Assembly (NCBI GenBank): GCA_946628965.1
Contig: CAMOXI010000006.1
Location: forward strand, 1 to 52,016
Length of the DNA: 52,016 nucleotides
Source: an uncultured Clostridia bacterium
Lineage (GTDB): Bacteria; Bacillota; Clostridia; Oscillospirales; Oscillospiraceae
Direction of reading: 5' to 3'
How positions within the stretch are numbered: the stretch's first letter is position 1; the number at the start of each line of letters is the position of its first letter. Shown here piece by piece: positions 1 to 2,689 of the stretch. Both the position numbers and the translations under genes were made by a program. Under the pieces are notes generated by a model, which saw nothing but the letters and a program-made list of their open reading frames with translations, had not been told where the DNA came from and searched no databases.

Positions 1-148
1 GGCCGACGAAGAAGGTGTCCGCCGCGTTGTAGATGCCGGTGACCAGCATGCTGATCATCGTCGGCACCGCCAAGGTGCAGATCAGGCGCGGGATCGGCGT
101 CTCAGTCAGATAGGCGTGGCGGTCGCCTTTGTGGGGACGGATGCTCAT
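1..148 (-). CDS. MATE-family multidrug/Na+ antiporter, N-terminal fragment
   Basis: Only the first 49 codons lie in the window; the gene runs off the left edge. The start ATG is at 148. The peptide reads TPIPRLICTLAVP followed by a hydrophobic stretch ending YNAADTFFVG, which is the typical first transmembrane helix of MATE (NorM/DinF-type) efflux proteins, where the (V/A)DTxFVG signature closes helix 1. The family exports cationic drugs or metabolites in exchange for Na+ or H+. The start codon overlaps the stop of the upstream HAD gene as ATGA, so the two are probably translationally coupled. The substrate cannot be inferred. Confidence 0.85.
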   Translation of the reverse strand, partial: MSIRPHKGDRHAYLTETPIPRLICTLAVPTMISMLVTGIYNAADTFFVG

Positions 149-727: not shown

Positions 728-2689
728 TCAGTCCACCGTGTAGATGCGCAGGGCGTTCAGGGCCGTGAGGGTCATGATCAGGGCCTCACCCGCGGCGCCG
801 AAGGCGATGGGCAGCGTGCCGGTCAGTGTGAGGATGAGCATCAGGGCCTTGAGCACAACACAGAGGAGGATGTTCTGCCACACGCCGCGCAGGGCCGTGC
901 GGGCGATGCGCAGCAGCATGGGGAGCTTCCGGATCTCGCCGGACATGACGGACACGTCCGCCTTATCCGTCCCATCGTCATAGCGCAGCGCATCCATGGC
1001 AATGCCCACGTGCGCCCCCTGGAAGAGCGGCGCGTCGTGGATCCCGTCGCCCACATAGGCCAGGGTATCCCGGTCGCCCAGGCCCTGCAGCAGGTACTGG
1101 ATGGCCGAGAGCTTGCTCTCGGGCGTGAGCTCGGAGCGGACCATGTCGAAATTCAGCGCGGCGGCGATGTTCTTGGAGACGGAGAGCACGTCCCCGGTCA
1201 GCATGACCATCTGCTTGACGCCCTGGGCGCGCAGATCCTCCAGCGCATCGAAAGCCCCGTCCCGCAGCTTGTCGGAGAGCAGGATGTGGCCCCAGTAGCG
1301 GTCCTCCACCGCCACATGGACGGCGGAACCGGCGCGGGTCGGCGTGAGATAGAAGATCCCATGCTCCTCCATGAGGGCGGCGTTGCCCACATAGACATGC
1401 CGCCCCTCGATGAAGGCGGAGACGCCGCGGCCGGGCACTTCCTCGATCTGCAGGACGCCGTCGGCGATATCGCGGGTCCATCCGCCGGCCTGGCGCAGGG
1501 CCTCACCCATGGGGTTGCGGGCATGGCTCTCCGCCGCGGCGGCGACGCCGAGAAGCTCCTCCTCGCCCACCCCGTCGGGGAACACGTCGGTCACGCGGAA
1601 TTTCCCGTCGGTAATGACGCCTGTCTTGCCGAAGGCCATGGTTTTCACATGAGAAAGCCGCTCCAGCACGCTCTTGCCGAAGATGCGCACGCCCTTGCGC
1701 TCGGCGGAGAGCATAGCCCCCTCGAAGCAGAGCGGCACGGAGATGAGCAGCGCGCTGGGTGACGAGAGCAGCAGAAACAGCAGCGCACGGCGCAGGCCGC
1801 CCGCCCAGTCGTGGGTGAAGATGGGCAGCAGCACGCCGAGCAGCAGCGCGCAGACGGCGACGACCGCCGTATAGATGGCGGAATAGCGGTTCAGGCGCGT
1901 CTCCAGAATGGAGTCCAGCGCCCGGGCCTGCTCAAAGCTCTCCAGCCGCAGAGCGGCGGCGGATTCGGCAAAGCACTTCTCACAGCGCATGGTGATGTCC
2001 GCGCTCAGATTCACGCAGCCGGAGCGCAGCCTGCTACCGATGGCGACGTTGACGGGCTCCTCGTCCCCGGAGAGGGCGGAGCAGTCCACGCTGCTCACGC
2101 CGGAGACCACTTCCCCGTCCACGGGGATACGCTCCCCCGCCGCGACGCGCAGCAGATCGCCGATCTGCACATTCTCGGGCACGGTCTCCACCGCCTCGTC
2201 CCCGTGCAGGACGAAGGCCTTCTCAGGCAGGATCTCACGCAGGAGCTCGACCCCGTTGTCGGTTCTGGCCAGCACATAGCCCTGCACCAGTTCCCCGGCG
2301 CGGAGCATCAGCAGCGCGAAGGCGCCCGCCGCGAACTCGCCGATGCAGAAGGCGATCAGCGCCGCTATGAGAAAGAGCAGATCCTCATCGGGCCATCTGC
2401 GGTTCAGCACCCGCTGGAGCGTGCGGCGCATAAGATCAAAGCCGGAGCAGAGCGCGGAGGCGCCCAGCAGCAGCACCTTGACCCAGAGGGGCCGAGACAG
2501 CAGAAAACCCACCAGAAACAGCAGGGCTGCCATGAGCACGGGGATCATCGCCCGGAGCGAAAAGTCACGCGGATAGCGCTTTTTCTCCTTTTCAAAGCGA
2601 AAATCCACCACGCGGGGCAGCTTATCCGTGGGGATGCTGGGCATTTTGAACTGCTTTTTTTCCTTTGACGGGGCAAGATGCTTTGCCAT
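728..2689 (-). CDS. Heavy-metal-type P-type ATPase homologue lacking catalytic and metal-site residues (probable pseudoenzyme)
   Basis: A 653-residue membrane protein with the P1B-ATPase layout: a charged N-terminus with no HMA domain, paired transmembrane helices, an actuator domain (DGEVVSG), further helices, and P and N domains with MLTGD and GDGIHDAP. Key residues are changed. The phosphorylation motif DKTGT reads GKTGV, with Gly354 in place of the acceptor Asp (GGC codon at 1628-1630). The transmembrane CPC is Ser310-Pro311-Ser312. TGES in the actuator is SGDE. The N-domain HP pair is Asn392-Pro. GDGxND has His for Asn. The frame is intact along its whole length, and the start is supported by GGGAG eight bases upstream. 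It cannot form the usual aspartyl phosphate, so pumping is unlikely; a regulatory or structural role is inferred. Confidence 0.85.
   Translation of the reverse strand: MAKHLAPSKEKKQFKMPSIPTDKLPRVVDFRFEKEKKRYPRDFSLRAMIPVLMAALLFLVGFLLSRPLWVKVLLLGASALCSGFDLMRRTLQRVLNRRWPDEDLLFLIAALIAFCIGEFAAGAFALLMLRAGELVQGYVLARTDNGVELLREILPEKAFVLHGDEAVETVPENVQIGDLLRVAAGERIPVDGEVVSGVSSVDCSALSGDEEPVNVAIGSRLRSGCVNLSADITMRCEKCFAESAAALRLESFEQARALDSILETRLNRYSAIYTAVVAVCALLLGVLLPIFTHDWAGGLRRALLFLLLSSPSALLISVPLCFEGAMLSAERKGVRIFGKSVLERLSHVKTMAFGKTGVITDGKFRVTDVFPDGVGEEELLGVAAAAESHARNPMGEALRQAGGWTRDIADGVLQIEEVPGRGVSAFIEGRHVYVGNAALMEEHGIFYLTPTRAGSAVHVAVEDRYWGHILLSDKLRDGAFDALEDLRAQGVKQMVMLTGDVLSVSKNIAAALNFDMVRSELTPESKLSAIQYLLQGLGDRDTLAYVGDGIHDAPLFQGAHVGIAMDALRYDDGTDKADVSVMSGEIRKLPMLLRIARTALRGVWQNILLCVVLKALMLILTLTGTLPIAFGAAGEALIMTLTALNALRIYTVD

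Follow-up and report, generated by a model that had tools for sequence, protein, structure and literature searches.

The window, by which we mean the whole analysed stretch of 52,016 nucleotides from an uncultured Clostridia bacterium, carries a gene for a relative of the P1B-type metal pumps that, on well-supported sequence evidence, is a pseudoenzyme. Its catalytic residues are lost across orthologues, its frame is under purifying selection, and it is usually linked to a gene for an apparently intact HAD-IB phosphatase. Selection on the cytoplasmic head, together with this linkage, suggests a new, non-pumping job for the pseudo-pump. Our preferred reading, to which we assign a probability of about one half, is that of a membrane-anchored, nucleotide-binding pseudo-pump which derives from a duplicated P1B pump and regulates or scaffolds the phosphatase. 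The features concerned are collected in Table 1.

Table 1. Coordinates of the pseudo-pump gene, its motifs and domains, and its downstream neighbours in the window.
Feature	Position	Strand	Remarks
MATE-type gene, start	1..148	-	overlaps the HAD stop (ATGA, 145-148); cut by the contig end
HAD-IB phosphatase gene, 193 aa	145..726	-	one base after the pseudo-ATPase stop (TGA C ATG); DFDxT and other catalytic residues intact
Pseudo-P1B-ATPase gene	728..2689	-	653 aa, ATG start, 0 internal stops
GDGIHD replacing GDGxND, P-domain Mg loop, residues 547-552	1034..1051	-	
N-domain, residues 373-470	1280..1573	-	includes Glu387, Gly422, Gly435 and Asn392
Gly354 codon GGC, slot of the phosphorylated Asp in DKTGT	1628..1630	-	read from the sequence
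SPS replacing the CPC metal site in M4, residues 310-312	1754..1762	-	motif located in the protein
Actuator (A) domain, residues ~151-245	1955..2239	-	deleted in nine related species
SGDE replacing TGES, actuator loop, residues 207-210	2060..2071	-	motif located in the protein
N-terminal tail, MAKHLAP start	2558..2689	-	residues 1-18 and 25-33 with pLDDT <50

The original prediction, that glycine stands at the position of the invariant aspartate and that CPC, TGES, the HP pair and GDGxND are also altered, was borne out for every one of these motifs; GKTGV spans residues 354-358 and N392-P393 fills the HP slot. Pfam nevertheless assigned E1-E2_ATPase (PF00122) and Hydrolase domains to the protein, its score lies above the NCBIfam cut-offs of TIGR01525 (368 bits versus 346.25) and TIGR01512, and in a sequence search of the PDB the zinc pump ZntA (4umv, E 3e-70) and the cadmium pump 7qbz matched best. 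The AlphaFold2 model (mean pLDDT 87.8, pTM 0.82) shows the helices that a P1B pump should have, and among the fold matches listed CopA 7r0g_B had the top TM-score (0.84) and ZntA 4umw came first by E-value. Because the model is confident and matches CopA and ZntA, the P-type fold is most likely still present. By sequence and fold the ORF is a P1B relative; judged by the phosphorylated Asp of DKTGT, the TGES dephosphorylation motif and the CPC-type intramembrane metal site, it is not a working P1B ATPase. As the protein passes the curated TIGR01525 cut-off, automatic annotation can mislabel such pseudo-pumps as metal-exporting ATPases.

Matches to the window protein were present in 60/60 relatives searched first. 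A profile of the degenerate proteins (E-value threshold 1e-60) matched all 102 genomes of the genus but also picks up canonical pumps, and loci were fetched and proteins read to separate the two. A degenerate P1B paralogue was found in 94 of these genomes, including all 34 of good quality. Full-length copies number 91 (77 in the first set, L215, L216, nine later ones, and L283, L286 and L287), and three are partial (G105, G011, G086). Since full-length copies were collected as open frames, broken copies are under-counted. At the loci fetched from G065, G067, G009, G082, G085, G116, G007 and G028, all at most 80% complete, no degenerate copy was found, and the P1B matches looked canonical where the motifs were covered; the HAD gene was also not found in these eight genomes. 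Beyond the genus, degenerate copies were not seen except in one sister-genus locus (L213): the 23 other-genus loci checked, among 30 returned, all had CPC, DKTG and GDGxND, and as most family matches were not fetched, a divergent copy elsewhere could have been missed. A start of the form M-x-K/R-H, mostly with a lysine-rich tail, was seen in 56/77 degenerate copies versus 0/26 canonical proteins within 40 residues, a count biased by a start-codon choice that favoured M-x-K-H.

The catalytic position is variable among the degenerate proteins. Residue 354 is Asp in 29 of the 91 full-length copies, Gly in 24, Ser in 14, Glu in 11, Asn in 11, and Thr and Cys in one each; the 32 canonical and sister rows have Asp without exception. 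The degenerate proteins form one clade, with SH-aLRT support of 100, 99 and 96 on trees of 77, 88 and 91 rows. On the 91-row tree, which is head-only and leaves out the residue-354 column, there are at least 12 changes at this residue (11 on the 88-row tree, 9 on the smaller one). Because 29 copies still have Asp, the residue must have been lost several times, and these copies could still be phosphorylated, which counts against our reading. In the subclade of the window (29 full-length species), however, residue 354 is Gly in 23, Ser in 6 and Asp in none. The window protein is not a lone mutant, and because its relatives fix the substitution, Gly354 is explained neither by chance nor by sequencing error. 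The loss of Asp is general in the subclade, but SPS is not fixed: of the five full-length proteins nearest to that of the window, three have SPC.

Other motifs have decayed as well. The Glu of TGES (Glu209) is retained in 8/77 degenerate versus 26/26 canonical proteins, and the last Cys of CPC in 7/77 versus 26/26. A single degenerate row (L173) has a complete CPC, and TGES, CPC, DKTG and GDGxND occur together in none of the 77. Over all 91 full-length copies, not one has the complete catalytic set. Among the other fourteen copies, nine have no actuator, L215 reads NKTGT, and L228, assessed by simple motif patterns only, has neither CPC nor TGES. Three are very divergent and have no adjacent HAD gene: L283 (G014), L286 (G070) and L287 (G098) read GMTG, EKSG and EKAG, respectively, at DKTG, and the latter two start with MGKHV. 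All three lose even the Lys, the Thr or the TGD Asp, and this also speaks against our reading, as does the Asn at the His392 position, with the window among 5/91 such copies.

Synteny, regional rates and dN/dS were determined for the first 77 copies. Among the pairs listed (45 of 71 qualifying), NG86 dN/dS was 0.048-0.188 for degenerate proteins (n=30) and 0.086-0.319 for canonical ones (n=15). For the window, the ratio was 0.25 versus L089, 0.22 versus L090, 0.16 versus L001 and 0.29 versus L091, all below 1. In the regional table, the N-tail of the pair L144-L172, a short stretch, gave a ratio >1, and some synonymous rates were saturated.

The distribution of constraint was compared by amino-acid divergence per region in 30 disjoint degenerate and 11 canonical pairs. 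Relative divergence in degenerate versus canonical pairs was 0.67 versus 1.48 for the N-domain and 0.51 and 0.62 versus 0.84 and 1.11 for two pieces of the P-domain. In the opposite direction, it was 1.37 versus 0.94 for the first helices, 1.14 versus 0.89 for the A-domain, 1.09 versus 0.66 for M3-M4 and 1.27 versus 0.82 for M5-M6 (Mann-Whitney p 0.02 to 7e-6 for these contrasts). The N-terminal tail gave no significant difference (p 0.19). By these rates, the pattern of constraint seen in intact pumps is reversed: here the P and N domains evolve slowest, and the membrane helices and the A-domain are relaxed. Within the head, Glu387, Gly422, Gly435 and Lys526 are present in 91/91 degenerate copies, and Lys355 (90), Asp500 (90), Thr356 (89) and His392 (85) are kept in most. 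By this constraint and these kept residues, what is under selection is the cytoplasmic head without its phosphoryl-transfer apparatus.

In nine species (L216, L230-L237), the whole actuator domain is missing, while the P and N domains and the membrane helices are kept and the frames are open. These proteins are nested in the 29-member subclade of the window, and the domain was lost once. PF00122, present in the window protein, is absent in the two actuator-less proteins tested by Pfam (L231, L233), and one of them (L233, 210.6 bits) scores under the TIGR01525 cut-off.

A HAD gene follows the pseudo-pump on the same strand in 75/77 degenerate loci versus 0/26 canonical loci, 24 of the latter with at least 700 bases of downstream sequence. 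Overall, it is adjacent in 89/94 degenerate loci (partial copies included, and L283, L286 and L287 scored as non-adjacent), 86 of which have a full-length pseudo-pump. Among 62 extracted cases, 41 have the two genes -26 to +36 bases apart, and 21 have a larger gap. A nitroreductase-like gene lies between them in 22/77 loci belonging to some clades (e.g., L104, L071) and accounts for most of the larger gaps. The phosphatase retains the hallmarks of a HAD-IB enzyme (DxDxT, motif II Ser, motif III Lys, motif IV Asp pair): DFDxT is found in 75/75 HAD genes detected by profile, and Ser103, Lys141, Asp160 and Asp164 in all 62 of these 75 that were extracted, DxDxT being required for extraction. The model of the window's phosphatase (pLDDT 94.2) resembles 3fvv and SerB-type phosphatases.

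The linkage is not absolute, in this genus or outside it, and by itself it is no proof that the two proteins touch. In G068, G113, G070 and G098 the HAD gene is located elsewhere (in G098, 176 bases from a contig end), which speaks against our reading, and in G014, a genome 71% complete, it was not found. HAD-IB genes are present in 93/102 genomes of the genus, 54/300 of the family and 65/394 of the order. P-type matches occurred at 10 of 65 HAD-IB loci sampled mostly beyond the genus, in a set with some places counted twice, four loci of this genus and flanks of often only 1.5 kb; this count likewise weighs against our reading. Because the HAD gene is often found without a P-type neighbour, it does not always need one. 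Elsewhere, an intact CopA-like pump lies near a HAD-IB gene in another family (L272), a pump of another type lies beside a HAD gene in genus g64 (L181/L218), and UbiA prenyltransferase genes occur near HAD-IB genes in other genera, directly in L223 and two genes upstream in L224. From its neighbours in other genera, one might guess that the phosphatase acts on a lipid-linked or membrane-associated phosphate.

Further neighbours are less constant. The window had originally been described as a run in which a HAD phosphatase and a MATE transporter follow the pump. The HAD part of this arrangement is conserved, but the MATE part is not: a model of the window-type MATE detected it in 6/77 loci, not counting the window's own copy, which is cut by the contig end, and we rejected it as a conserved partner. 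The window gene was named by its likeness to full-length neighbours in relatives (L001, L091), and in the sister genus other MatE-type genes lie downstream of HAD (L208, L211). A VanZ gene is located upstream in 16/77 degenerate loci. A spoIIIAA gene follows downstream on the same strand in 38 of the 68 loci whose downstream sequence extends 4 kb or more (e.g., L075, L100), and its match starts less than 180 bases from the HAD stop in 12/36 measured loci. This proximity would fit a sporulation or envelope component, in which membrane part and head serve spore formation and the phosphatase acts in the same process. We consider this unlikely, since spoIIIAA is lacking in 30/68 loci and was not recognised at the sister-genus loci, and the linkage may be inherited gene order.

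The sister genus g125 indicates where the gene pair came from. In five of its loci (L208, L209, L211, L212, L214), a P1B gene with intact catalytic and metal motifs precedes HAD, although L211 reads TGEA for TGES and L209 is partial, cut by a contig end. In L208, L211 and L214, the gene immediately upstream of the pump belongs to the ArsR cluster (Pfam was run on the L208 gene). Together with L213, these five proteins are sister to the genus clade, with joint-clade support of 98, 87 and 99 in three trees. L213 (G417:C8) itself has a degenerate P1B protein (TGDR, SFA, DKTGT, GDAVSD) beside HAD, which apparently decayed in parallel. Because the sister genus has an intact ArsR/P1B/HAD version, a working pump cassette would have become the pseudo-pump/HAD pair. 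The simplest history is then an ArsR-pump-HAD cassette in which catalysis was lost once in the ancestor of the genus and once, in parallel, in L213.

A second, canonical P1B gene was looked for in the genome of the window and found on a different contig (G000:C7), with TGES, CPC, DKTGT, HP and GDGIND. Among the P1B genes of this genome are L273, a canonical pump of the Zn/Cd type accompanied by an ArsR gene, and a third one, L274, which has an SPH motif. As a canonical pump is retained in the same genome, the pseudo-pump need not be required for metal export. The same coexistence, with at least two P1B-type matches in 99/102 genomes of the genus, would allow the pseudo-pump to be a regulatory partner of the intact pump, through a mixed oligomer or by titration of metal or nucleotide, and an ArsR gene still lies directly upstream in 8/77 degenerate loci. 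Such a partnership is nonetheless quite improbable: the membrane helices, which would offer a natural surface for contact, belong to the fastest-evolving parts, and in the window's genome the two P1B genes are on different contigs, while HAD is adjacent in nearly all degenerate loci.

An unconventional but active pump, as argued for the eukaryotic ERMA/TMEM94, is harder still to maintain. It would agree with the P1B helices predicted by the model and with the Asp of 29/91 copies, and ERMA is reported to be active although it lacks TGES and has GSSANL in place of GDGVND (PMC13322241). The activity of ERMA, however, is reported to need its Asp, D427N having abolished uptake (PMC13322241), and the 29-member subclade of the window has no Asp at this position. 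CPC is lost in nearly all copies, the membrane parts are relaxed, and nine species dispense with the actuator.

Although nearly all genomes are draft or metagenome assemblies, and one MAG (L002, G105:C26) has two ORFs, of 209 and 518 aa, in place of the single frame, we reject a decaying pseudogene and an assembly or sequencing error as hardly credible in view of 91 open full-length frames from different species, substitutions fixed clade-wide, and dN/dS of 0.05-0.29 over the window and the other degenerate pairs. The original interpretation as a maintained pseudoenzyme instead of a sequencing error is thus supported by the clade-wide loss of Asp, by dN/dS and by the canonical copy elsewhere in the genome.

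The preferred reading, a pseudo-pump that regulates or scaffolds the phosphatase, can be set out as a sequence of steps. As far as can be judged from sequences, a duplicated P1B gene of the Zn/Cd type lost its phosphoenzyme, dephosphorylation and metal-binding residues in the genus; purifying selection, acting chiefly on the P and N domains of the cytoplasmic side, retained the pump-like protein; and the HAD-IB gene stayed linked, with an active site that appears intact. The P/N head would plausibly still bind ATP or ADP without being phosphorylated. From the membrane, the head may then control the HAD-IB phosphatase allosterically or serve it as a scaffold, with both the interaction and the direction of control being presumed. 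As the P-domain and the phosphatase share the HAD fold, an inactive HAD-fold protein would control an active one. More tentatively, the pair might be a new bacterial signalling unit, in which a P-type fold that no longer pumps, reduced as far as a membrane-anchored P/N head lacking both actuator and phosphorylatable Asp, senses nucleotide (energy) and switches a HAD-fold phosphatase dedicated to it; this unit would have originated from a metal-efflux cassette that lost catalysis, with the catalytic residue drifting among D, G, S, E, N, T and C. We regard this wider proposal as possible but doubtful.

Older surveys of uncharacterised P-type families exist. In the literature covered here (titles and beginnings of abstracts, with most subscription journals outside this coverage), no bacterial pseudoenzyme lineage of P-type ATPases was found. 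The lineage extends through nearly a whole genus, shows seven different amino acids at the catalytic site and has members that naturally lack the actuator. It offers a series from intact to dead pumps, with the intact pumps of sister species as controls, and opens two questions to experiment: whether a P-type head can sense nucleotide on its own, and whether pseudoenzyme/enzyme pairs exist within the HAD fold.

Compared with known systems, the pseudo-pump shares domain order, fold and membrane topology with P1B Zn/Cd ATPases (ZntA/CadA; 4umv, 7qbz; TIGR01525/TIGR01512). It differs from them in the loss of Asp, TGES, CPC and the HP His, in its relaxed membrane part, in its HAD partner, and in the actuator that has gone in nine relatives. 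With the ArsR-P1B-HAD cassette of the sister genus it shares the HAD neighbour, but the motifs intact there are lost in the genus. The nearest precedent found for a degenerate P-type protein is TMEM94/ERMA, compared here through published descriptions (PMC12134183, PMC13322241): it, too, has the P-type build but lacks TGES and has an altered GDG loop, and its status as a pump is disputed. As described there, TMEM94/ERMA differs in being eukaryotic and in keeping the Asp (DKQGIL) and an A-like domain, and those descriptions mention no HAD partner. The downstream phosphatase shares fold and catalytic residues with HAD-IB phosphatases (PF12710; 3fvv, SerB folds), although the window's HAD protein stays under the cut-off of each NCBIfam model that it matched. 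In pseudokinase/kinase pairs, a dead fold homologue controls a live one; the pseudo-pump and its HAD phosphatase would follow the same logic in a different fold, a parallel that we put forward only as a hypothesis.
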